From positions 8,246,168 through 8,310,167 of the forward strand of contig OZ038531.1 of assembly GCA_964036665.1 (NCBI GenBank): DNA of 64,000 nucleotides, in the 5' to 3' direction. This DNA is from Gordius sp. MW1 (lineage: Eukaryota; Nematomorpha; Gordioida; Gordea; Gordiidae). The notes beneath the pieces were generated by a model that worked only from the letters and a program-made list of their open reading frames with translations, was not told the origin of the DNA and made no database searches. Below, piece after piece: positions 5,634 through 48,600 of the stretch; the first letter of the stretch is position 1; each line of letters begins with the position of its first letter. The position numbers and the translations under genes were made by a program.

Positions 5634-7055
5634 TAAAGAGGAAATGGCTTACACAATCTTTTAAGCATCTCCATATCAAAATTAAGTTTGGTAATAAAAT
5701 CAATAAAACACAGATTCATTTCATAAGATATAAACATTTAGGTAATTATGAGTTATTCAATTTATCCATTAAAATCTTAAAGTAAAATATAAATGCATTT
5801 TTAATACCATATCTGGATTAAACTTAAACCGTCGTATTCAATAAGTTGGGTGATTTTTTAATGCCGCAATCAAATGACCAACTCTAAATGCAATGCTTGC
5901 TAACTGCTTAGCTAAGAGGGAATGTAGAAAATGAACAAACCATTCCTAAATTGATATTAATTAATTTATTTATTTTTTAATAGCTTTTATACACAACGTT
6001 AACAGAGACTTTCGTTATTAAGATAGTCAAAATTAATGCTATTATATTTAATAAGCCTAAATTATTAACGAGAATCATTATTATTGATCCAGTAAGATAT
6101 CGTAGTATATATTGATTTCTAAGAAATCATTTATAATTCGTTTTTAATACAATCCAACCCCCTTTTTCGGGAAATAAAAAAATCCAACTCATCATTTATT
6201 TATTAGCTTAAGTTTATACAGGTATATAATATTAAATGGTATATATTTATACAAAAGCATTGTTGATATTAAACACCATATAATATATTGCATCCTCCTC
6301 AAGTATATCTCATTTTTATTAATATAATTAGAACCCACTAAAAATCAGGACTAGGTCTGTGACCTGTTATATAATAAGTTAAACATCTTCATATGAGTAG
6401 TTACTTATATCAATGATTTCCGAAAAATAATTAATATTATAGTTACAACATATTAAATAATTAAGATTTTATTTGTAATTGTTACGACGCGATTATGTAA
6501 ACAATTCGATTACCGAGTCAGATTGCACACATAACATATTGCATTTAATTTTTGTTCCTCGTAAAGTGATGCTCCTGCTAATAAATCTATTAAAAACATA
6601 TTGCATGTTCGAGCGAGGCGCTCTTTTGAGTAAATAATAACAAAAATTATATAATCAAATCTTTCCGTGGTTTAGATTCAATATAAAAGAAAATATGTAG
6701 ATATAAATTGAGGGACAATTATAAAATTTGATTAAACTATTTATAAGTTATATTTACAATTGATTATTTAATTAATTCCGGTTCTGTTAATATTTGAAGA
6801 TAATAATAACTCCATTTAGGAGTACTGCAATTAACTTAAAAGTTTATCAGCGCCATCTTGAGGCAATTTTAATTAGAGACTAATTTGACTATAAATATCA
6901 CTAGGTATCTTTTTTAGCATGTGACTCGAAATGATATAAGACATATAACGTTATCGCTCTTATTCGAGCTCATCAGTATGCCATAGAAAGGCTGTGCAAG
7001 CGATAAATGTAATACATCTATTAGTTAATAATAGCGCAATGTTATATGAAAAAAT
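5634..7055. other. AT-rich spacer, nothing recognised
   Basis: Very AT-rich sequence with no gene or bounded repeat recognised, running up to the left end of the RTE element. Confidence 0.5.
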
Positions 7056-10000
7056 TAACACTACCTACGACGGTCCCAAGTCCGTGTGCAAAAAGTGGAG
7101 GGTTGGCGTCAGGTCGGAAACCGGTTATAAAATCCAACTCCAAAATTATGATAGTTTTAAACAATATTTTACAAGAAAAGGCTAGGGCGTCCTCCACAAA
7201 CGACGCGCACTGCATACCTGGCCCGTGCAATGTGAAAAATACACTAGGGTTACTGCCCAACTCACAACGAAGGCGGTTAAAAAAATTAGTTGTTGAAAGA
7301 ATGCGAATAACGTGCTGGAATGTGGGAAACCTGACGGAAAAGAGCATCGAGGTCGCACAAATGCTAAAAAGAAGAAAGGTACACATCGCCTGCCTACAAG
7401 AGACGAGGTGGAACGGAACGAAAGCTCCGGAATTAGGAGAAGGATACAAGCTTTCCTACAGTGGGTCACCAAATCGTAGAAACGGGGTCGGTATCGTCCT
7501 AAGCGAATCGTTCAAGGACAAGGTCGTGGAAGTCAAGCGTTGTTCCGACAGGCTAATGTGGGTGACGATTGCACAAGGGGGCCTCCTAACCGTTATGTGC
7601 GCATATACTTCCCAAATTGGGTGTATGGAATCAGAGAAAGACATATTCTTCGATTCATTGGAAAAGGAAATACAAGTAATCCGACAGGAAGAAAGGCTAA
7701 TTATTGGGGCCGATTTCAACGCTCACGTAGGAAAAGATCGCCTTGGGTATGAACGCAATCATGGAGGCTATGGGCATGGTCTGAAGAACAAAGAAGGGGA
7801 AAAACTTCTCCAATTATCTCAAGCATATGACATGGCGATCGTTAACACCTATTTTCAAAAACGTGAATATCATATTGTGACCTATAGAAGTGGGAAGCAT
7901 TTTAGTCAAATTGACTATTTGCTTATACGACGAAGGAACTTATGGAGCATCAAGAATTGCAAAGTAATACCGGGAGAAGAAATCGCCAGACAACATCGTC
8001 CCCTTGTTATGGATCTTGACAGAATAATATTTCCCAAAAGAAGAAAGGTCTATAAGCCTCGAATTCGATACGCAAGGCTAAAGGATACGTCGACAAACGA
8101 AAAATACCATCAAAAAGCGTCCTCACTCTTGGGTGCAAGGAAGTTGCAAAGGGACGTAGACGACAAATGGGAGACGCTATCTAAGGAAATAAAGAAAACA
8201 GCGATTCGTGTTCTAGGACAGACCAAAGGAGGCAAAGCTATGAATAGGGCACTATGGTGGTGGGATCAATCGGTTAGGGATTTCATCGAAAGAAAGAAAA
8301 TTCTATATAGACGGTGGCATAAATCAAAGAAGTCGGAGGATTATCAAGAGTATAGGGACGCAAAGAGGGCCACAATAAAGGCCGTTGCAATAGCGAAGAA
8401 TGCCGCCTACACCGAGATGGCAAACAAACTGGATTATAAAGGGGGCGATAGGCTTATGTACAAATTGGCCAAAAGGGAGAAGAGAAGCCGCGATGTCGGA
8501 GTTCTTAAAATAATCAAAGATGTGAAGGGTCAAACCTTATTCAAGCCGAAGGAAGTGATGGAAAGGTGGAAAAGATATTTTAAAATCCTTATGAATATTG
8601 CAAATGACAAGGATTTCCTTCCCGAAATTGAGCCAAATATAAGTATGGTTGAACACTTTCAGGAGGATGAAGTTAGGGCACAAATGAACAAGATGCAAAA
8701 AGAAAAAGCAAATTGCCCCGATGGAATACCTATGGAAGCATTGCTCGGATGTCGTGAAGAAGGAGTCACCACACCATGACGAACCTCCTTAACAAGATCT
8801 TGGTAGAAGAGCGAATTCCTAATCAATGGAGAGCAAGCACGATTATACCCATATTTAAAGGCAAAGGAGACCCTCAAGACTGTGGCAATTACAAAGGTAT
8901 CAAGCTAACTTGCCACTCCTTGAAACTTATGGAAAGGATCTTAGTAACAAGGCTGAAAAACGAGGTGAAAATATCGGCTAACCAATTCGGATTTGTGGCC
9001 GGCAAATCCACAATCGACCCAATCTTCGCACTAAGGCAAATGATGGATAAGTATGGTGAAAAGAAGAAAGACCTACATATGGTCTTTATCGACTTGGAGA
9101 AAGCTTATGACACGGTCCCCCGCGATTTAATATGGTGGTGCCTGAGAAAACAAAATATCCCTGACGCATATATACGGCTTCTGAAAAATATTTATGAAGA
9201 CTCAAACTCTTGCGTTAGGACGACAGTTGGAGACTCTAAATCTTTTCGGGTTAAAATTGGATTACATCAAGGATCTGCTTTAAGTCCCTTTTTATTTAAT
9301 ATAATTATAGACACGATAACGAGGGACAGTCAAAAGCCATCGCCATAGTGTATGCTATATGCCGATGATATAGTACTATGCGAGGGAACAAGGGAGAAAG
9401 TATTTGAAGATACCGAAAGTGGTCAAAGCGCTTAACTGGATATGGGTTAAAGGTAAACGATGGAAAAACGGTATACATGGAAATGAACGGTACAAGTAGC
9501 CCATCGCTAGATGACCCTCTAAAGTACCCAAAAGTAGACAGGTATACAAACCTCGGCTCGATGCTACATCAAGAGAGAGGTTGGGCAACGGAGGTCAATG
9601 CCCGCAAGGATGGCTTAATGGCGAAGTATATCCGGTGTAATGTGCGACAAGAAAATGCCAATATAGTTGAAGAGCAAAGCTTACAAATCCATCGTAAGAC
9701 CGGTAAAACTTTATGGAAGTGAAACATGGGCATTAAACACCACGGAAGGAAAGCTATTACAAGCCACAGAGATGAGAATGATACGTTGGAGCTTGGGGTA
9801 TACTAAGCTCGACCATATGAAGAATGACTTTCTCATGACAAAAATGGGTATTCAACCTATGGGGGACATGATTAACAAAAATCGGCTAAGGTGGTATGGG
9901 CATATAGTAAGAAGAGACACGAATGACGTAAATTGAATAGTACGGGACATGGAGGTACCGGGCAAGAGAGGAAGAGGACGACCCCGTGTCACGTGGAAAG

Positions 10001-10129: not shown

Positions 10130-11185
10130 GAATATATGCAGAAAATTAATTATTTAAGATTTCCATCATCGTTATTTAATTGGTAGAAGTTAAGTTTTAA
10201 TCCGTCTTTGTATGGTTTCTATTAATTGTTTGTGTATTACAAAATATTTTTAAGTCTGTTATATACATAAACTAATATTAGTCTATATTTAAATAACATG
10301 TTCAGCTAAATAATTTATTTATAGCGTCCTTATTAGATTATAATGTCTAATAGAGATATGCATTCATTTTTAATGGTATACTTTAATTAATTAATTAATT
10401 AGATTAAATTTAATTGCCATTCTTTTGTATTATCTCAAAGTAATGGTTGAATAGTATAAAAACACTCATGGTACATAGAAAATTATAGCATCGAGAGCGA
10501 AACCTTAAAATCGGTGAGGTGTTCCTTTTTAAACAAAACGTTTTTCATAAGAAACTGCAAACCAACTTATTAAATTAATTACGAGTATCCTGATCCTGAT
10601 AGCTAATATATTTTATCGATAAAAGCAATTTCATATTGCAATACCCTTTATTAGATGACCTGGAGACTAATGGAGTACGTTACAAAAGGTATTCTATTTC
10701 AATTATCATCATATAATCCATAGATAGACTAAACGATGTGAAAAAGGCTATTGATTTTTGAATAATGTGGTAGAAGACGTAGACCGTTAAAAGGGATTTG
10801 CTATTAATTGCTATTAATAGACAAAAATTAGCTGCTACGCCCAACATTGTCTAATGCTATGGCAGATCATCTAAGTTAGCACTTTATTTATTTTTTTATT
10901 TTTTAAGAAGTCACTTAGGAGGGCTTTAACTGATATTGCCCTTTTAAAAGAATACCTTTTAGCCGAGCAAGATTAGTTTCTTCTACTCTTTCCATTAATA
11001 ATTCATGACAAATTTTATTTCACAATCTAGCGCGGGCATTTTGCACCTTATATTCGTCACTTTTAGATGTCATCAGTCTCGTTCTATACATCGTTCAGGG
11101 TCTAAATACTTTAAAAAATCCTCTAGTACGCATTAACGTTCGTCCTATATATACACATGAGAATTGATAAAATACTTCAAAATAT
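10130..11185. other. AT-rich spacer upstream of peptide-precursor gene
   Basis: No coding or repeat structure was recognised. This is the 5' flank of the gene starting at 11186. The promoter cannot be placed with confidence. Confidence 0.45.
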
Positions 11186-14100
11186 ATGATGTCTTGCAAG
11201 TTTTATAGGATAAAGAGACTTATTTTAATTATTCCAGTTATCATAATGACGGAGCTGTGCCATGGGGGGATTGTGAGATGTGAAAAATACTTTGTAGCCT
11301 CACAATCGGGTATTCTAAGCAGCAGGACAAACACTACCAAATTACCTCAATTAGGAAATCATTTAGGTAACGGAATAAATTTCGAAAAAATGTCATTAAT
11401 TTGTCTTAAACACTATTAAAAAATAAACATTTAACATATATTTAAAGGATCCGATCACTTACGCCTAGATAATTCATATTTCTTCAAATTAAAATTAATA
11501 TAAATATACATTGATATTATTGCATATTAGAAAGGTATATTGACAAAATTCCCCAGAATAATTAATTCATAGGGTATTTTGATAATTCCACTTATTGCAT
11601 CTAAACTTATCATCAATGTTATTAATCGCCTCAGGACAGTTACAAAATTAATTATGTATTTTAATTAATCCATATAATAAACTCGGTTTTATTAATCAAA
11701 CAATAAATTTGTTTTAGCTTAGATACTCATTGATTAACACTGAACTTATCTAAAGGAGTAATGTCTAAAATTAATTATTTAAATATATATTTACAAATAA
11801 TCACATAAATATTTTGTTTTCGTTAAAGTTAAATTCTTATTTAACCCTAAGCTCATTAATATGCGATTTAAATAGTAGTTTCGTTTTTTGAAATGTCAAT
11901 ACTGATTTATCATAGCAATAAACTTGTATCTTATAAATAAATGATCAATAAATTGTAAATTTAGTAACTGTGACTAATTTATTCATTCGAATACCAAATC
12001 CTTAGTACTACTCTCTTTTTATTCGCATATTAGTGATTAAATAAGTAATAAGAAAATTTTTAAATTTATTATGCATTTCAACCTTCTGGGTAAAGATTTA
12101 AATAATTCTCTACAAAATATATTTAAATAAAATGAATAATTAGGTGTTTTTGTAATTATGCACAAAAAATGTCTAAGCTATTGGTTTGTTTCACTTCTTC
12201 CCTACATGTATTTGGCCCAAAAGTCGTGAGGTTCGCTTCAGAGACAATAAAATTCAGGCCAGGCCTGTGAACCCCGTCTTAAATTTGGATTCTTGAGCGC
12301 GCCCGAACTGGGGCCATAACAAGATTCCAGCAATTCGGGCTTAATGAATTTATAGTGTGTATTGTACTTTTTTATTTGATTGTATAATATTCATTAATTT
12401 TTTTTTAATGATTATATTTTTTATTAAATGGTTTACAAAAAATTACATTCACGACTAAAAAAAATAAAAACGCGCTATGACTAAACGGATGGCATTGATC
12501 CGTGTATGGAAATCATGTTGGATTTAACGATTTCCATTGTGATCCTTTGCCTGAATTGCCTAATCATAAAAAACGGGAATTAATTAAAAATTTCTTTGCA
12601 AAATAACGAAATTACTGCTATCAAGCATTTCGGGCAGCCCAAATGATTCAGGATGATCAGGGGCAGATGGGTTAGGGCGGGCACGGGCCGGCAATTTAGC
12701 TATTAAATAAGACCGGGCCAGGTTCAGACAGAATGACTCAAACAAAGCTTTTCTTGGATTTGTTTTGATAAATTTTTTATATCTTGATCGAGTACGGGAG
12801 ATGTTGGCAATTATCTTCTTAGTTTATAACTTTGTTTACTCGTCCTTTCCAGTTCCACAAAATACGAGGTCGTCCTTTTCCTCTCTTCCCCAGCACCTCT
12901 AAAATACATTTTAATTTACCTCATTCGTCTCCTTATTTTATGACCATACTACGTTAGTCGATTATCGTTTATCAAGTCGGCCACAAACGTACCTTTTTTA
13001 AATAAACAATATAATTAAATTGTCAACTTTTAGGCTTTCGTGTCTAACTCTTTGATAAAAGGTAGGGAATTTTTTATTAGCAATTATATTATTAGTTTGA
13101 AATAACATTATGTATATATTTTTGTTATTATAATTAATTGCAATAAATATGATTAAGTATCTGTATTCATTAACGACTTCACGCAGGTTTAATCAATAAA
13201 TTATTTAAATTGATGCATATTTTATAATGAGTCTCTATCTTTATATCTTCCAATGGCATGGAGATATGAATCTATAACAGTAGTTATCAATTTTATGGCC
13301 TGCACATTAATACTGCTAAAACCTTTTTACAACTTATAAAATGATTAATAATTAACTACACATTAGAAACAATGACGATGTTTGATAAATATTATGCCAT
13401 AAACTCAAGTAATTATACGATACAGATAACATTGCCTCTCCTAATTTTTTTAAGATAATGAGGACGCTTTGCAAATATGCTAATATCGAGATTACAATAA
13501 TTGGATTTTTAATTACTTTTTTCGTGAGCTTTGTTCTTAAAACTTAAAGTAACTTTCATAAGGCCTACCTATTAATTAAAATAATAATTTCATCTTAATC
13601 TCTTATCTAATCATTTCCAGATAATTATAAGTGCACCTTTTAAAAGTTTTTACATTATGCAGTTGAGTGTATAAAGTAGCTGCCGTTTCTAACTATGTGA
13701 CGTATACAGGGCATTTATAATATAGACTGGGTAAAATGCATAACTTAAATTTCATTTAAAAAAGATGAAACCATTATATAATTCATTTCCCATGAGAGCT
13801 GATTATCAATATTACCTAATTAAATATATATATCTTATACCAACTGTAAAGATTACCTTTTTATTATCACATTTTAATATGAAAAATTTAATATTTTGGT
13901 CTTGTTAACCCACTACTTAACTTTGCCATGCCAAATATTTTAATTTATAATTATGCAATTTTAGCAACTTTGTTTGTAAACAATAGTGTTGTAAAAACGG
14001 CTGGATTTTGTTTGGTCTACCTTTGGTTTTAGTAGAATAAACATAAACAAGCCAAAGATCTTTCGTCTGTTTTTCTTTGTCGCATGACTAGACTAAAGTT

Positions 14101-14682
14101 GAAGGTTTTTAGGTCAAACCTTTAGGTTTAGTCTGTTTATGGGATGTCGACTAAAACCAAAGTTCGACCAAACAAAACGCAGCTGTTTTCACAACAATAG
14201 TAAACAACTTTATCAATATTCATACAGGCGACGTCAATTTAATAACGACAAGTAATAAAGCAAAACTAGCCGAGCCTAATAAAGACGTTTTATCACGAAG
14301 AAAACGAGAAGATCAAAGTGATCCGTTAGAGTATTCTTCGGACATTTCGGAGTATGAGCAGGATTATGAAAAGGACACATTTTCAGATCAAAATAAGGAT
14401 AAATCCATGGATTTATCCAACGCATTTAAATGGTTTCCAAGGCTTGGTTTATATAATAAGAGAGCAAGCGCTATGGGATTATCAAATGTGGATTGTCAGT
14501 ATACCAGAGAAAATTTACGAAGACTATTGGAAACTTTGGTGTCCGCTCGTAAGGCGGGTGACATAAATGGACTAATCGATTTATGTGGTCGTCGTACGAG
14601 GGCAGGATACCTCAAAACTGATATACGATTTTCGGGAAAAAAGAGAAATATGTTTAAAACAGAGATGAACGATTATTATTAA
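11186..14682 (+). CDS. Putative secreted peptide-hormone precursor, two exons
   Basis: Model: exon 1 at 11186-11366 and exon 2 at 14228-14682, joined in phase 1 (donor TTAG|GTAACG, acceptor TTCATACAG|GC), giving 211 residues. Residues 1-27 form a signal peptide: a basic start, then the hydrophobic core LILIIPVIIM and a likely cut after CHG. Exon 2 has a convertase site RRKR (84-87) followed by an acidic spacer of 50 residues up to KR (138-139). Next comes a 41-residue segment (140-180) with two Cys at 150 and 180, ending Gly-Arg-Arg. A 13-residue segment (184-196) follows, ending Gly-Lys-Lys-Arg. Gly before dibasic sites is the standard C-terminal amidation signal. The tail is NMFKTEMNDYY. 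I do not recognise the family. The 41-residue length with an amphipathic, Leu/Arg-rich middle recalls CRF/DH44-like hormones, but no diagnostic residues match. A start at the second Met is equally possible. Confidence 0.62.
12239..12737 (-). repeat. GC-rich hAT-like element, degraded, in intron
   Basis: It shares the GATTC..GCAATTCGGGCTTAATGA stretch and GGGCCGG-type blocks with the elements at 3000-3440 and 43716-44640. A CAGAGAC-like left terminus is present. The ends are decayed and approximate. It lies in the single intron of the peptide-precursor model. Confidence 0.5.
13986..14197. mobile_element. TA-site MITE with GTGTTGTAAAAACGGCTGG end
   Basis: The 212-bp element has terminal inverted repeats of about 30 bp with a few mismatches, including a shared TTTTGTTTGGTC block. 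TA flanks both ends (13984-13985 and 14198-14199), as expected of Tc1/mariner-type non-autonomous elements. Related copies lie at 49279-49435, 50434-50576 and 52402-52555. This copy ends only 30 nt before exon 2 of the peptide-precursor gene. Confidence 0.8.
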
Positions 14683-16498
14683 ATTTCTTTATCATACCAT
14701 TTAAATTTTATACGTGCTTATACTTAGAAATCGTATGTGTTTAACCCTTAATCGTTAAGTGTATCATTTTTTAAGACGTTTATATAAAAACTAGCATTAT
14801 TTTTGGAACATTGGTTTTAACCGTGCCACAATGGGTATAATTTGTTTCAAGCATTTCACTTAGTTTATAATTTGGATTTTATTAGGGTTGGGTCTGACTA
14901 TACATTAGGTGGCAAACATTGTAACCATGTTTAAAGTTGTTGAATAAATCTTATATAACCAATTAAAAATTGCATTTAAATCATTTTTAGCTTTAAACGC
15001 CATATTTAATAAAATTTTTTAGCATAACGATACAAATTAAGCACGGAACACTGGCTCGCAAACAACTCATCCATTATTCTTTGGATTTTAATTTTCTTTC
15101 CAAAATGTATTTTAAAGCCCCCATGTTGATTACAAAACCCACTCTCTCTATCTCGATGCGATCATTAAGTGAAAAATGTTTGCTTAGATGCAACACTTTG
15201 TTCTACCAGATAGGTAAATAAGAAATGGGAATTTTTAAGAGATGTTTGAGAGGGCAATCAATACTCTCGTTAGTGACATTTTGCTTCGTTTAAAGTGATA
15301 AACACCGCTACACAATTTTCTCTTTTATGAATATTTGTTACAAAGTATTGCTTATAGCTGGCTCAACTGTGTGTCAATTGGTGGCTATACACGCAAAATA
15401 ACTTTGCTCTTTTGAGACAAATTAATCATATATTTTTGTAAAATCTGAGGGGTGCTCATCAAGTGCTAGTCCTATCGATGCAAATAATTCGTAATAGGGC
15501 GTTTTCCAAATATAGGCTTTAATAATTTCCTTGAACAATATTTGCTCCGTGTGCAGTTGCATTTTAATAAAACAAAATTATTTTATGTTGCTTTTTAATA
15601 AATCGATCATAAGTTGTTGGGTGGGCGCATTCAGTATTAGCGTTTCGCCAGGTTTTAGGAACTCATAATAATCATACCTTCCACATCCCATTTAACAAAT
15701 TGTCCAGATTCTTCGTTTCTCACGTCAGAATCTCCATTTTTGAATTTTTTAACCATTCAAAGTACCATGCATATCCTGACCATAAACTTCGACAAGCATT
15801 ATTCTGTCGTTTTTTTAAAAAGATATAAATCTTAAGTTCTTCGCTAATCGCAGTATTTAGCCATAAATGGGACATGTTTTAGGCGCCACCAAAGTGGTTT
15901 GAATAACTAGGTAAGTACATCAAAGGCCAGGGACATCAAGGAACGAATTCCGGTTTATATTTATATACCTGGTACTAGTGGCGTTCTAGAAACCCGATTG
16001 TTTAACATATTGTTTGATGGGTATTAAAATACGATATTCAATTACATTTTTTCTAGACAATTGCTAGTCAGACCCGTATTTAGGATTTTTGTTATATAAG
16101 TTAAGAGGCCGACCATAATGCCCTTGCTTATATTTGATAATCGTGTCAAAAACACAAAACATATAACAAGTCTTACCAAAACATACATTTAAATTTTTTA
16201 TTAAATTATGTAACTAAAAACGACGCGTTTTATAAAATCGTATTTTAAATGTATAAATACGTTCCACAACTCAAGTACGAGCAATTTCATTCGCGACATT
16301 AAAAAAAAGTCTTAATGAAAAAAGTATGAAAATGTATTAATAAATATCCATTATATACAAAATATTAATTTAATTACTACAATGAATCTATATATAACTA
16401 TAACATTTATAAAAATGCTTATATATATCAAAATTGAGACTTTAAAAGTATTGACAATAAAAAAATAAAGATATGGTTTAAGGGAATATATAGGCGGA
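14683..16498. other. Intergenic, between convergent genes
   Basis: This separates the 3' ends of the peptide-precursor gene (+) and the hexosaminidase gene (-). An AATAAA on the + strand at 14943-14948 could serve the peptide gene. Nothing else was recognised. Confidence 0.45.
16197..16202 (-). terminator. Candidate poly(A) signal for hexosaminidase
   Basis: AATAAA on the minus strand, about 300 nt beyond the stop codon at 16499. In AT-rich DNA this hexamer is frequent, so use is uncertain. Confidence 0.3.
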
Positions 16499-19400: not shown

Positions 19401-22400
19401 AGCCAGGATTGGAATTAGAGGGGGACAATAATGATTTATGAAGGGGCAAATGATCATTTTTTAAAATTTTAGCCATAATTTTAATAAATTTCATCAAATT
19501 TTTGATTTAAAAGGGGGCAGCCGCCCCTCCCTTAGCTACGCCCATGAAAAGACCTATGTATAAAAATTTTAAAATAGCCGTTTATCACCATTTATAAGCG
19601 GTATAAAAGTGAGAATATTATAAGCTTAACCAAATATTTTCAGATCCTATGTTTAAAGCAAAACTTTATATTTCACATAAAAGCCCGTTAAAATTGAGTG
19701 ATAAAAAAGACAGGTTACCAGCAACTAAAGATAACTTCGTCGCCGCCCAAATGCAGGTAAGATTCTGGGAACCTTCGGAAAATTTCGTCAAAAAATTTGT
19801 CGAGAAATTGGTAAGTAGTGTTGGCGATGGGATTGATGGGACCACTCAGGGATTCAGCTACGAATTTATTCCTGTGATCTTTGTGGTAGCAAGTTGTGAG
19901 AAGTTCGGGATGCCCTTCGCCCCAAGACAAGGTGTGTCCTAGGTGTCGATTCAATGTTTAGATAATACACTAATCATTTATCATTTTTAAAAAAATACAT
20001 GTTTTGTTAATATGAAAGAAAGAAATAAAAAAAAGTTAATAATCATAAATATTTGGAAAACATTCCGCTATTGCTATTGAATTATATTTAAAGATGGTAA
20101 TGTCGATTTTCTGTCTTATAAAATAACGAATCGCGATTATCATGGGATAGTAAAGAAATTTGTTTCCCTATTTTTTTTTAAAATAATTTCTAGGGCTTGG
20201 GGGGCCAACGGTTGTGAGGTGGTTGTCGCAATGGGACAAAAAATTATAGTATTAATATGGGTTAATTAAAACGCGTTATATTTGAACATTTTGATTATTG
20301 AAGTAGGTAAATAAATATCTTAGTGTATCCCAGCTCAAAAGTAGATTACTAGAAGGGACTTTATTGAGAACGCATGCATCTCTAATTCTTTTAGCCGTAA
20401 AGTACTCATAGAATGAGTTCTCACATCGTTTATAAAAATATCATTCAATGCTGAAAATTAAATTTATAAAAGACTGACCATAACACAGGTCGAATGAGGT
20501 TTTTGAAGACATTTAATTTTAAGCCGTTTTCTTGACAACAAAAAGGAAGTTCCTAAATTTCGACAATTATTATCAAAAATAAATTTTAGTTGTGGTTACA
20601 ACCTAAATACATTATCTTAAATCATAACTAAAAATCCGTATAGAAACTTGATCAAGCAAAAAACTCAAAATATAATCTTCAATTAATCGCACATTATAAA
20701 GATTTAACAGTCAGTCCCAGGTCAAAATTTACCAACAAAGGTTAAAAGCCAGTGTAGTATACTTTTTTTAAAGCTAATAAAGGATCATTTGTAAATCATT
20801 TTATATTGATTCATGCTATCATTACAATTATTTTGCAGGTCCCCCCTAGGCAAGTGTAGTTAGAAGCGCGATAATTTATAAAGAGCTTATTGATAGCGAT
20901 CAATCAAGCAAGACAAAACAGCCCCGAAAGAGTGTATTCATTTGCAAATAAATGCAAAATAAATTTATCTCCACACAAACACACACCCCCCCCCCGCCCA
21001 TGCACATGCTATCATGAATTGGATAGGCCGAGCTAATTACTATCTAATTGTAGCAAATAAGGGGGAGGGGCGCGCAGGTGTTACAATAAAAATAGAAAAA
21101 CACTAAAAAGGACGTGTATTAATATCAAAGAGGGCGATATCATATCATATCGATACATGATGATGTAACATAAATATAAATTGCTTTAGATTAGGGGGGT
21201 GGGCAAAAGTCTCAATTTAATTGGGGGCAATACGATAATTTGTACAAACTTTAATAATCACGATTTCGATATAAAAGATTTTTAAATTTAAAGGGGGGGG
21301 GCACCTGCCCCTATTGAACCCCCACCCTCCCCTGGCTAAGCTCATAAAAATAAATGCCCCAATTAAGAAAAAACTCTACGATCTGCGCGAGCCTAAGGTG
21401 GACAATTAGATGGCAAGACTCAACAAAAACATATATACATTGTCACGCTGTGTTAGTGTTAAACAAAACATTACGTCATACAAGACCAATGTTTATTAGT
21501 GTGTCACTCACTAACTTTTAAATTAATTTTAAAGTTTAGCGCGGAAAAATAACATTAAGTCAACCAATTAATATCATATTTTGTTTTTAAAAAATGTGTC
21601 AAATTTCGAGATTAATCAAGCATAAATTACAGCAATGAGCAACAACTGACCTGGGGTATCGAATTCCATCATCACTCTAATGCCTCGGTATCGGGCTTCT
21701 TCCAACACATTTTTCACATCGTGAGTAGTATAGTAATGGTCATTGCTGTAAGCACCCTGGAAAAATAATTAAGCTTACATGAGTTCCTACACACTAATCA
21801 AATTAGAGAACTGCACGGGTGACCCGAACCCCGACCAAACCCCGAAGTCGAGTTCGGGTTGAAAAAAAGTGACTTTACAAGTCTCTAAATCAAATTTGTT
21901 TCCAATAGTGAGGTTTTTCAATATGCGCACTTGAGCAACGAAAAACTGCAAATTTTTTACCACTCCTTTCGCAATACAAATTAAATCGTAAGCGATATCG
22001 ATTGAAATCACGTTTTAATGAGCGGATATTTGAAAAAAGCTACCTAAAAGTTATGTTAATTTCATTAACATTGTTTAGTAAAATAAAATAGGCTCAAGTT
22101 TATGCATATAGTTAGATTATTCAAGTTTACGTTTTTACAGTTATGATTAAGACACTTTTCAAAGATTTATAGTTGGTCCAAAAAACAGTAGGCGCCAAAG
22201 ACCCTAAGGCCTTTTTACTCCACCCCAAATATCATTTTAAAATTACCAAAACAAATTTGACCCTTGGTATATGATTAAATTTCTATTTCTCAGGCAAAAT
22301 AATGAACAGAGTCAATTGGTTGGCACTTAACAAAAATATTTTAACAAATCCTACATCAATGATCCTTCTAATATTAAACATCTCGAATGAGGTTAAGTCA

Positions 22401-24347
22401 AAATCAGGCCTGCAGTATTTTATAAATTGCACTTAAATAGAAACTCATACAATAAAAATCAAAAATAAAGTATTTAATAAAACAAACAAATAATTTTAAA
22501 AGTAAAGGGGAAAAACCTTCTGGCTCAAGTCTGGATAGGCTTCGCTGAAGAAGGGAAAAGATTGGTCATCTACTATGTGCCAATGGAAAACGTTCATTTT
22601 GTTCTGAGCCATTGCCTCCTAAAGGAATCACCGAAAAACAAAAAGGTGAAACTAAGAACTATTAAAACAATTGAAAACAATAACATTTATTTCTAATTAA
22701 AAAAGTAATTTAAATTTCTCTCACACATATGTTTTGGTGTTATGTGATCAAAGCTATTTCAATAATCTTTTAACCATATGTTGGTTAATTAATATGTTTA
22801 TTTTAGGTTCGTTAAACTAACACAAAAGGTACAAATTAAAAGATAAATCATCACAATTTTGCATGCTATTGTATCTTCATGAAGTAAAAAGCTACCATCC
22901 AAACTTTGTTTTTCAAACAAAAAAATGGTTAGTCGACTTAAGAAAAAAATGAGCAAAAAACCTAATTTGTTATTTATATAAAACAATTTTTAGTATTAAC
23001 AAATTAGACAATGATAAACCTTTAACAGTTTTAGATAGTAACATAGGATGCCCTAAGTTATTTAAAATAATTAATATAAAGGGATATTATTAAAAAATCT
23101 ATATCAGCCTATTTTTATGACAATTTAAAGCAGGATTTAATAAATCAACGAGCATTCCTACGTAAAATTTAGTAGAAAATAAACTCAAAATAAAATATAA
23201 AGTCATACTTAATAGTAATATTATGGCAGAACCAATAGCCTATAATTGATTTAAGTTTCAAACTATACTAAATGATATCTTGCAGTGACTATGTGTAATA
23301 TAACTTTTTCATTTTATTGACTTTATCTTGAATACACAAACATAAGGATTGCAAAATCCAAAAACTTAGGTGCTTTTATAATTTTGACTTATAAATAAAC
23401 AAAAAACAAAATGTATATTAGAATCACCAAAAAAAGCAGTTCCTTTAAGTATTAGATATTGTGTGCCTTTGTTAAGCTCTTTATCCAGCATTAAATATTA
23501 AAATTTCAATTTGTTAATTTAAAATCAAATAAATAAACAAAATTTACCAAATTTTGTATAATGACAGATGGTTGCAAAAAATGTCTAGATGTATCAAGCA
23601 AAATTCCTCTGTGTGGGTACCTAGGGCTATCAACAACATCAGTGACATTCATCATGAAACTACCACGATTATCATCCCAATGCAAAAGATGAGTAACAGT
23701 TTCAAGAGCTCTAATCACACCCCATACGGCTTCAGCTTTGATTGTTATTATACCATAATCATTCACTGTAAAATTATCTAAATACGCAAATGTATTTGTT
23801 ATTATGAGTACTAAGTGTTTTTATAAAATTAATGGGAAAACATTTATTAATTTGTTTAACCAACCAATAGCATTTATACTCAACTAAATAAAATGTTTTC
23901 ATTTGGCACATTTATATTGTGTAAAAATTAAAGTAATAAAAAAATATTATAAGGAAAAGATAGTCACTTACAAGCCTCATTCATATTTGCATGAGGCCAA
24001 TCTTCACATATAGAATATTCCATTTTTATAATGGTAAAATCTTCACCCTGAACATAATCCACCCTATTTGTTAAAATTCTGTCACCAGCCAAACGATATA
24101 TGTTAGTCAAAATTCTTTTTACAGCTAATTCAAGCACTTCACAATATAATGAATTGTGAACACTTATAGAATGGGGGTTAACAACAATAAATTGTTCAAC
24201 GCTTTCCATGTATAAAGGTGTTGGCCAGGGTTGACCACCTGTGCCAGGAATAGGATGATTATATATGGCTTTGAAATCATCGGCATATAATTCATAGGAT
24301 AAATTAAGGAAGAGCGATAAAAACGTTATAAATATCAAAAGTAGCAT
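16499..24347 (-). CDS. HEXA: Beta-hexosaminidase (GH20), ten exons, complete
   Basis: The enzyme removes terminal N-acetylhexosamine from glycans and glycolipids in lysosomes or outside the cell. Exons on the minus strand: 24347-23972, 23765-23548, 22618-22517, 21756-21651, 19938-19719, 18332-18167, 17863-17686, 17276-17186, 16815-16711, 16559-16499. All junctions are GT/AG and keep phase, giving 540 residues (human HEXA has 529, HEXB 556). A signal peptide ([20 protein letters not shown]) starts the protein. The N-terminal domain has GQPWPTP. The barrel shows [46 protein letters not shown], the catalytic HLGGDEV (Asp334-Glu335), [21 protein letters not shown] and [13 protein letters not shown]. 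Asn-X-Ser/Thr sites include NVT, NTT, NNS and NAT. The ORF seems to stop after RCRMIK, but a donor overlaps that stop and a 61-nt last exon adds the family-typical GIPAQP..GPGYC end. Whether it acts like the alpha or beta subunit cannot be told. Confidence 0.95.
19392..19546. mobile_element. Small hAT-like MITE (GTAGCC family) in hexosaminidase intron 5
   Basis: The ends are TATGGGCGTAGCCA and TAGCTACGCCCATG. The flanks AAAACACC (19384-19391) and AAAAGACC (19547-19554) match in 7 of 8 positions. It is 155 bp, non-coding. Confidence 0.82.
21190..21347. repeat. Decayed GTAGCC-family copy in hexosaminidase intron 4
   Basis: GGGGGGTGGGCAAAAG at the left and CCTGGCTAAGCTCAT at the right, with G-rich and C-rich inner blocks, resemble the family. 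The termini are too worn for an exact end or target duplication. Confidence 0.45.
21804..21887. mobile_element. 84-bp micro-MITE with perfect 8-bp target duplication
   Basis: It starts TAGAGAACTGC and ends GTCTCTA, and is flanked on both sides by AATCAAAT (21796-21803 and 21888-21895). TAGAG/CTCTA ends with an 8-bp duplication fit hAT transposition. Inside are GACCCGAACCCCGACC and GTTCGGGTTG blocks and an AGTGACTTTACAAG stretch shared with 28110-28245. It lies in hexosaminidase intron 3, about 47 nt upstream of exon 4 on the transcribed strand. Confidence 0.82.
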
Positions 24348-44648: not shown

Positions 44649-45657
44649 GATATCATTCTAGAATACTCGGCGAAAATGTTCAGACTTTACACAGTCTTTT
44701 CCTTCACCAACTTTCTATGAACCTTTTTTTAAACACAGAATTTATGCCATCATACTATTCATAAAAATTAATTAAGCAAACAATATTTCTCTAAAAATAT
44801 AACTTACATGATTTGCAAATAAAATACATAATGTCCATTAAACATGTAATTTGGTCGTGGAAATAAATGAGTGATTACACAAACGCAATTAATAATCTCA
44901 TGATGATATTCAATTTCAATAATAAATTATTTTGTGCTAGTGAGTTTTACATTGATTAATGTTAAGTTTATTGGGAGGCACAAGACAAAACCTTTTCCAT
45001 TTTAAAGTTATTTGCTTTGAAATTTTTTTCCCCATTTCGGGGAGGGAGCGCCCCTCCCCCTACGTCCATGCATATAAAATTCCTTAGATATATACTGCTG
45101 ATATAAAAAACCCTAAATTAAACTCGATTAAGTGGCTCTTTGATTGTACACAATGCATCATTTTATTTTAAACCCAGCTTGTTTAACGTGAGAACATGAC
45201 AAAATGTTTACTTATCTATGAGCAGCAGTACTTTATAAAATATATTAATGATTATGGTTTAAAAGAACTATTAAATTTAGGGGTTAGAAGGTTATAAAGT
45301 TATCTAATCATGTTATGCCTATCAATCTTCTATTTTTCACTCACGATGAATCTATTGAATATTTGGGCTATATGTTTGTTACGAATTGGATGGCACTTTG
45401 AATTACATATATAATGTGATGTGAATAAGCTTTACTTTTAATCATCAAAAAGGTTCAGACTTATTATTGGTTAACTTTAGCTTCAAATATATATTTATTA
45501 ATTGTAATTTATATAGACTGAAATTAATTTTCTGACAATTTTTTCATAGTTATAGAAGTTTTATGCTTATAATTATATTTGGATTATAGAGATACTAAAA
45601 GTATAAAATGATTCATTTATTTATTATTTCTAGACTAATCAAAAACAAATAACTTTC
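44649..45657. other. 5' flank of DENND1
   Basis: No coding sequence was recognised. A splice acceptor-like TTATTATTTCTAG ends at 45633, 24 nt before the first ATG, so a 5' untranslated or short coding exon may exist upstream. A C-rich remnant of the GTAGCC family lies near 45040-45070. Confidence 0.4.
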
Positions 45658-48600
45658 ATGCTTAATCTTTCAAAATCCTCTTCAAGAATTAAAGACTTTA
45701 ATGGATCTCACATATTTGAAAATGTTATATGCTATGATTGTAACCAACTTGAATCACCCACTTTGCAATGGCTTTTTCCTCCACACCTAGATGATAAATT
45801 GAAAACTATTATTCCTGAATTTGCTCTTCCTGTGCCCCATTCAAGTTATTCACCAAAGCACAATGGTTTTATTGATTATACCAAATCATCTTCCAATACT
45901 CAAGATCTACAGATTCCTTATACATATCATGCATTTGCCTTAACCACTGATGAATGTGGACATTTACTTTTTGGTTTCTGCCATATGAGCCATAATGTAC
46001 TTCTTGTGATTTTAAGCTATCGTCCATGGTACACCCCTTTTTATAAACTTTTGACACAATTATCAGGCTCTTTCATTGAAGGATCATTTGATAATGATAG
46101 TTATTCATTTTTAACAAAAATATACCAACATCCTTATAAAGTTTTGGATGGTGAAAATGACAAAGAATACAATCAAATCAGAGAAGGGAAGTTTAGTTTT
46201 ATATATAAAAACCCTGATCTTCTTGATAACCCCCTATCAGATGGGGTTCCTGCTATTATACCAAGTATATATATAATACACTAAATTATTATTAAATAAA
46301 AGTTGAATTTATAAGGAACGGCTAAATTATAATTATTATTATGAGAACTGTATGTTATTAACATTTATACATTCATCAATTCTGTATTTCTTCTTTTAAA
46401 AATTTAATTAGGTCTTTAAATGAACATGGCTTTTATTTTAATTTTAATTTTGCAAAATTCATAATATTTTTATATAGTAGCTTTTATTTTACTAATTTGG
46501 GTGGATCTCACAAAACCACACTCATGCTAAATTTAAATATTCTCTATGAAATATTTTATAGTTTTAGGTATAAAATGGGCTAGGTGGACTTGTTTATATA
46601 AAATAATTGCACACCACTAAACTTAAATTTTAATTTGGATACACTAGGAGATATTTCAACAATTTGCTTTATTATAATTATAAAGAAGTTAATGTTTTTA
46701 TAGTTGGTTTAAGATTCATTTTTGAACTTGCTGAAATTATATAAAGTTATTTTGGCCTGATGAAAGACAAAGCCCTAGTTTGAGTCTATAACTTTGACTG
46801 ACATTAGGAAATCTCCTTATTATAATTTTCAATAAATTAAAAAATACCTTTTAATATTTTTAGTTATGTTTCACCTAACTTGTTTTTTTTTAAATTTATG
46901 ACACAGTACAAACATTTTTAAAAGGGATTTTTAATAAAGCAATTTTTATTTTGCTAATTGATAAAAATAAGAATCTTTTCAATTAGATGATAAGAAAATG
47001 GTAAGATAAATATTTGCACTATGTACTGGCATTTCCTAGAGTATAATTTGTGGTGGTATTACTTGTTAAACATACAATTTATCAGCAGATTAGAAAATTT
47101 TTATAAGTTAAAATTATAGAATTTCCCTTTTTTTAAATAATTTTAAAGCAAGTAAAATGGAAATGATGATATGAGAATAAAAAGATTAATATCTATATTT
47201 ATTATTTTAAGGATTTTAATTTTAACTTGGGCCTGCTCATAATCAATATAAAATACTGGGGCCCGGTTGATAATTTTTATTTAGTAAGGGGTTGATGCAA
47301 AGGCTAATTCTGGGAAACTTGGAAATCTTCTAATGTTCTCATTGCAAAAGGCGTCTTTACTGAATTTAATGCAAAACTTCACTGTTTGTTAGTCAATTAT
47401 ATCATTACTTTTTGGGTATGCTCAAAATTTTTGATCAAGGATATTCATCCCACTTTGATGAAATAACAATTATTTGCTAGAATTTATTCAATAATTGTCA
47501 TGTTAAATGTGTATAAACAATGCAAAGTTTTATATAATCAGCGTTTCTTTTTTTGGGGGGGGGGGGCAATGCTCACCCGGATTCTCCTAATACCCTCCCC
47601 CTTAAATTTGAAGAAAAAATCATAATTATTGATATTAGCCGCCCTCAAGCGAGGTTCTTGAAAGCAACCCCGTTAGTTATATAGCTTATAAGGCTTATAT
47701 TTTTTACTTATCCCCTAGGATTACATACATTAAATTTTTCAAAAAATCTGGGCATTTAAGCAACATATATTAATTGTTTTTATAAATCAATATATAATAC
47801 TTGTAACATCCCTACTACTTACAGCTAATCGTCAATTCACTGAGCTCTACAATTGCCTGAGCTCAAGCAATCTAATCACGGCCTGGACATCCATGCTCTA
47901 CGAAAGGCGGGTCATCCTAGTGTCCAGTAAATTGAATAGACTATCCTCCGTAGCCCTTTCCCTCCTTTACCTTCTCTTCCCCCTGCAATGGCAACACATC
48001 TTCATACCCATCCTACCGCAAAAGCTCATAGAAACCGTGGCTGCCCCCATCCCCTTCCTTATAGGTAAAGCCTCTCAAATCTCGAAATTTATTTATGTAA
48101 ATTTGTTTTGTGAAAATAAACTTTTTAACCCCCCCCCCCCAAAAAAAAAAAATTTTTTTTTTATGTCGGGTGTTAAATTTTATTTTAATTGCTACGCAAT
48201 TTATGGACTCGCTTTTCGTGGTCTTGTCTTGAGTGAGTGAGTGAGTGAGTGATGGTGTCCAATTTTTAGTTCTTGCGTAATCGCCGTGGAAACTTCTAGT
48301 AATGGCTGTGGACTTATGCCACTGTAAATGACTTTTATTTTGCTTTCGCAAATAGACTAGCTCATGACCGCTGGTTAGCTTTAATTTTTTGACCTCGCCC
48401 GAGCTCAAATTCCATTATTGTCGCAATCTTAATTCTATATTTGCTGCTTTGTGAATTATTGTTTTTTCTTTTTGTTATTAACCTAAATTTTGCATTGATA
48501 ATATATTGATCTTGTTGATAAGATTAAACATAGAGGCATATTGGCCGTCTGTTGGCTACTGACCAATGGAAAAAATGACCACTGAAATTTTTTTCGTTTT

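Follow-up and report, generated by a model that had tools for sequence, protein, structure and literature searches.

The window, a stretch of 64,000 nucleotides, contains a predicted two-exon gene whose product is laid out as a secreted peptide precursor (Table 1). A sequence-only reading had proposed that a signal-peptide exon and a dibasic-rich exon could be joined here in matching phase; the coordinates, the GT and AG sites, the phase and the 211-residue product all check. The splice junctions read TTTAG/GTAACG at the donor and TTCATACAG/GCGACG at the acceptor, in phase 1 on both sides, and the joined coding sequence comprises 636 nt (211 amino acids plus stop). The RRKR, KR, GRR and GKKR processing sites and the acidic spacer are all present in the product. 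GRR occupies residues 181–183, immediately past Cys180, and 11 residues follow GKKR. A short upstream open reading frame (10 codons, 11157–11189) overlaps the start of the gene.

Table 1. Positions of the window gene, its paralog and the neighbouring features of the window
Feature	Location	Strand	Remarks
Exon 1: signal peptide MMSCKFYRIKRLILIIPVIIMTELCHG and N-terminal propeptide	11186-11366	+	60 codons plus 1 nt
Intron, phase 1	11367-14227	+	GTAACG...CATACAG
Exon 2: acidic spacer, cleavage sites, C-x29-C-G domain, C-terminal peptide, stop TAA	14228-14682	+	
RRKR cleavage site	14296-14307	+	residues 84-87
KR cleavage site	14458-14463	+	residues 138-139; 10 residues ahead of the domain's first Cys
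C-x29-C-G domain, CQYTRENLRRLLETLVSARKAGDINGLIDLCG	14494-14589	+	residues 150-181; gapless conservation in paralog
GRRTR, basic site ahead of peptide	14587-14601	+	
Predicted mature peptide AGYLKTDIRFS	14602-14634	+	residues 186-196; predicted to be amidated from the next Gly
GKKR, amidation and cleavage signal	14635-14646	+	residues 197-200
A[AT]TAAA poly(A) signal	14943-14948	+	first past the stop
Paralog, two exons	G000:C5:15600639-15600753 + 15601871-15602256		same build as the window gene; product 166 aa
Paralog signal-peptide exon (MRTYILILSLFLYIALG...)	L002:72-186		phase-1 donor GTAACG
Paralog second exon	L002:1304-1689		acceptor TTTTTCAG
Inverted-repeat element	13984-14199		intronic; arms 73 nt, 78% complementary
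LINE-like element	7025-9348	+	endonuclease and reverse transcriptase domains, two overlapping frames
GH20 hexosaminidase exons	19715-19957 and 23506-23820	-	E 2.6e-15 and weak, respectively
Transposase_1 frame, 229 aa	24514-25203	-	adjoins the GH20 hexosaminidase exons
Open frame with reverse transcriptase domain, 798 aa	37236-39632	+	strongly negative GC skew
Frame with CENP-B N-terminal DNA-binding domain, 89 aa	42935-43204	-	E 1.3e-7
DENN-domain gene	45634-48240	+	DENN E 5.4e-28; uDENN below its cut-off

The N-terminus of the product combines a basic n-region with a core of strong hydrophobicity (best 11-residue mean Kyte–Doolittle value 3.08). It was called a signal peptide by a home-made rule, not by SignalP, and its exact cleavage point is approximate; the rule is passed by 8 of the 129 ATG-initiated open reading frames of at least 40 codons that the whole window contains, a set of 129 that includes exon 1. 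Exon 2 lies within a 175-residue stop-to-stop frame, the longest between 10000 and 24000, and its length is reached in 1 of 200 mononucleotide shuffles. The general features of a neuropeptide precursor are found together: a signal peptide (by the rule just described), dibasic sites, an amidation glycine and no recognised enzyme domain. The inverted-repeat element in the intron belongs to a MITE-like family, with 2291 first-look candidates genome-wide, 40 scored and 96 matching pieces.

A protein search with the exon 2 product against all 211.8 Mb of the genome returned two places at E ≤0.001, namely the gene itself and G000:C5:15602068-15602256 (E = 1.7e-4). The second lies on the same contig, 7.3 Mb away, and the reciprocal search from it, at E up to 10, recovered the same pair only (E = 5.2e-4). 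A composite query run against the genome at E up to 10 found no third member of the family. The order of parts is common to both genes: a signal exon, a phase-1 intron that begins with GTAACG, and one second exon; the spliced product of the paralog has 166 residues. The two proteins share an ungapped block of 48 residues, 15 of them identical; their alignment scores 102, where shuffles average 31 (z = 13; 0 of 5000 paralog shuffles scored as high). In each, a KR shortly precedes the first cysteine, the C-x29-C-G domain follows, and the tail ends in K.D[IL]RF[SL]G, without gaps throughout. Within the 48 shared codons, 28, 18 and 32 sites differ at codon positions 1, 2 and 3, which is the pattern expected of a protein-coding frame.

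Chance open reading frames or a decayed copy, and hence a gene that is not used, might be suspected from the non-optimal donor GTAACG and from the inverted-repeat element, which ends 28 nt ahead of exon 2. The intact frame, the conserved paralog, the greatest conservation at second codon positions and the presence of a poly(A) signal all argue the other way, and this explanation is very improbable. The existence of a diverged second copy on the same chromosome makes the gene look real; it probably functions as a neuropeptide gene and has one paralog. A transposon, which the sequence-only reading had named as an alternative, is refuted, and so is a retroelement: the gene occurs in two places only in 212 Mb, with an intact frame, and matches no Pfam family.

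Pfam searches with both proteins gave only weak, meaningless matches, and no family fits; among PDB sequences, searched with the window exon 2 product only, the best match had E = 0.1. NCBIfam, a library of bacteria and archaea, likewise gave weak, meaningless matches only. Scanning with the two-row alignment of the paralogs yielded 43 viral and 41 bacterial pattern stretches, none confirmed, from non-animal collections that are uninformative on distribution. An AlphaFold2 model of the exon 2 product alone, from a single sequence, places helices at residues 71–82, 94–109 and 113–125 of that product, with a mean pLDDT of 43 that is too poor for use.

The likeness to known peptides was assessed by scoring 38 consensus peptides against both proteins. 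The RFLamide consensus was taken from PMC7179676 and set against 37 rivals; trissin and HanSolin bring the number to 40. Tested on each protein separately, the RFLamide consensus reached p = 0.0039 and 0.016; the product of these values, 6.2e-5, was the best of the 38, the next being ETH (4.6e-3) and AstCC (5.9e-3). In a joint test, the columns of the 48-residue block were shuffled as aligned units, which preserves the relatedness of the copies. RFLamide was again first, now of 40 (p = 1.8e-4), and the next best among the 38 had p = 0.069; trissin and HanSolin, scored in the joint test only, gave 0.85 and 0.98. When the RFLamide consensus was scanned jointly, the peak of 45 fell exactly at the C-terminal, and last, of 36 offsets, and the second offset reached 8. 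Identities to the consensus are A2, T7, I9, R10 and F11 in the window gene and S3, R10, F11 and L12 in the paralog; the likeness concerns some 13 positions, judged against a single published consensus. The sequence-only reading could place the product in no peptide-hormone family, but its C-terminus fits RFLamide.

RFLamide is a recently described peptide, known from a 2018 report cited through PMC6585902 and found since then in Polyneoptera, beetles and stink bugs. In the passages on RFLamide of the literature searched, it is reported in insects only and as absent in one shrimp study; it is also reported absent from two bark beetles, red palm weevil transcriptomes, the pea aphid and Drosophila. 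As described in PMC7179676, the precursors of Polyneoptera have 122–211 residues, and the amidated peptide is always C-terminal, after RKR or RRR. The putative ancestral peptide of this group is PASAIFTNIRFL-NH2, mostly of 12 residues, and two orders have acquired two additional residues, with loss of the amidation site (PMC7179676).

The present genes resemble these precursors in having a single predicted amidated peptide at the C-terminal end, after a basic site in the window gene, and their products of 211 and 166 residues are within the range given in PMC7179676. The RFLamide consensus ends in ...TNIRFL-NH2, to which KTDIRFS-NH2 corresponds in the window gene and, in the paralog, KPDLRFL-NH2; the predicted peptides have 11 (or 13) and 12 residues, respectively, next to the usual 12. 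The terminal Arg-Phe-Leu-amide is nevertheless altered, the window gene reading DIRFSGKKR, with Ser for Leu, and the paralog DLRFLG-stop. Where RFLamide is preceded by RKR or RRR, the window gene has RRTR and the paralog KEK; moreover, there are two genes here, and the host is probably not an insect. Because the last residue differs, strict membership is not claimed. The window gene appears to be RFLamide-like, the comparison with insects being one of peptide consensus only, and would add a variant to a kind of peptide already known, not found a kind of its own. The tail of the paralog is GKEK-WISLVKPDLRFL-G-stop, with nothing beyond the Gly, and is best read as keeping RFL, with weaker cleavage sites than those of the window gene.

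Neither the DNA patterns nor the composite query brought out a clearer RFLamide at any other place in the genome. A loose DNA pattern for RFLG is too loose, with 340 matches against 171 in a backward control. The tighter pattern of [ND]IRFLG plus two basic codons gave 2 matches against 5 in the control, so that no canonical motif of this form is seen in the genome, with the proviso that a copy interrupted by an intron would escape the pattern. A pattern for CCHamide-1 had no match in the genome. Among the literature matches listed for IRFL strings, only PMC7179676 is relevant, and full-text searches for RFSamide, IRFSG and DLRFLG returned no neuropeptide, judged by title and the start of the abstract.

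It might be argued that the two genes form a lineage-specific, undescribed neuropeptide family, with the C-x29-C-G domain as the real hormone and the RFLamide likeness a convergent short amidated tail. That domain indeed lies in the stretch best conserved between the copies and is without a Pfam match in both proteins or a PDB match in the window exon 2 product, and the window peptide ends in RFS, not RFL. Convergence would nevertheless have to account for a match that peaks exactly at the expected place in both copies and for the retention of RFL in the paralog, and we consider it unlikely.

A second family comes to mind from the order KR, peptide, GRR and C-terminal extension in the window gene, which agrees with the description of iPTH (PXXXamide) in PMC7224569; iPTH was compared by description only. 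In a relative of iPTH, the cysteine domain would be the mature peptide. At residues 7–8 counted from KR, where PMC7224569 has the Ser-Asp pair (its alignment positions 7–8), the window gene carries Ser-Asn; the paralog has Lys-Arg for this pair, the comparison being by residue count and not by alignment; the Pro at −4, mildly conserved in that description, is absent here, and GRR is missing from the paralog. The window domain also has two cysteines, which go unmentioned for the iPTH peptide in the passages of PMC7224569 drawn on here. Such a relationship is very improbable.

The spacer of the window gene contains FKWFPRLG, a string reminiscent of the PRL-type peptides pyrokinin, tryptopyrokinin and ETH. 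In the window protein alone it gives p = 0.005 for ETH, 0.0115 for tryptopyrokinin and 0.047 for pyrokinin. It differs from such peptides, however, in that its Gly is not immediately followed by a basic site (GLYNKR), and it is not kept in the paralog (ETH p = 0.92, tryptopyrokinin p = 0.87).

The reading that we favour, and regard as likely, is that the locus holds a neuropeptide gene of two exons, related to RFLamide but diverged from it, with one homologous gene of the same build. The secreted precursor that the window gene probably encodes would yield a small nerve hormone similar to RFLamide. That the product is a secreted prohormone, as the sequence-only reading had it, is well supported. 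Of the two amidated peptides also predicted there, the paralog preserves the one at the C-terminus but not the one that would end in an amidated Cys ahead of GRR, since after the second cysteine of the domain the paralog has CGKEK where the window gene has Cys-GRR.

If general prohormone processing is a guide, the precursor would enter the regulated secretory pathway, and prohormone convertases would cut at RRKR, KR, RRTR and KKR. Trimming by carboxypeptidase and conversion of the Gly to an amide would then release AGYLKTDIRFS-NH2 or, as a possible alternative, a mature form extended by TR, TRAGYLKTDIRFS-NH2. The released peptide may serve as a neuromodulator or hormone, most likely with a class A GPCR as its receptor. 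One disulfide loop would probably be formed by the C-x29-C-G stretch, which might be a second peptide or a piece concerned with folding and sorting. From the paralog, WISLVKPDLRFL-NH2 would be formed if the weak KEK site were cut, the C-terminal Gly being followed by the stop.

A broader proposal, which we advance tentatively and with some doubt, is that RFLamide signalling is older than insects. The genome would then hold two diverged RFLamide genes, one that has drifted to an RFS-amide while its strong cleavage sites persist and the other with RFL retained and its dibasic sites lost, both encoding a conserved, disulfide-looped C-x29-C-G peptide that is possibly a second undescribed hormone. 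If this is true, a diverged and duplicated form outside insects would date the RFLamide system to early arthropods. The conserved precursor domain would then provide a query for searches elsewhere, and the two natural peptide variants could be used in finding the receptor. A gene that had been judged unplaceable from raw sequence could be placed through its own paralog.

Several features elsewhere in the genome may be recorded. The mitochondrial contig (G000:C12; L037, L038) has 14,798 bp and carries a short tandem array ahead of cox1. With genes named by eye, cox2 directly follows cox1, nad4L-nad4-trnH-nad5-trnF share the strand of cox1 whereas nad2 has the opposite strand, and the gene order resembles the arthropod ground plan after block inversions. 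According to PMC3176236, most hexapods and crustaceans have trnL2 between cox1 and cox2, the exceptions being 9 of 60 crustaceans and a few insects, and the two genes are adjacent in 8 of 8 myriapods and 46 of 53 chelicerates, and also in Protura. COI-like copies, probable numts, are numerous in the large contigs G000:C1, C3, C4, C5 and C8, four on C4 being equal in score.

A genome search found no Hemocyanin_M domain, which is no proof of absence. EcR-like ligand-binding exons occur in two clusters of three pieces each (G000:C2:22235142-22246395 and C8:21426666-21431681), suggesting two diverged EcR-like genes. Six of the seven matches to an insect-type EcR query are 44–64% identical; the seventh, at 25%, is probably another receptor. 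The joined EcR pieces match best to 2nxx (181.9 bits, as against 134 for LXR-beta). For pieces of muscle myosin the score is 464.9 bits with 3jbh, which we take to be tarantula, against 451.3 and 441.8 for 8u95 and 7kog, presumably from insects, a small margin. Arginine kinase gave no separation between groups. Taken together, these features lean towards a chelicerate or myriapod host, with a proturan or a rearranged pancrustacean as further possibilities. A phosphagen kinase query gives three matches at L046 (G000:C1:19275000-19281500), two of them within one 951-residue open frame that is perhaps a multi-domain arginine kinase.
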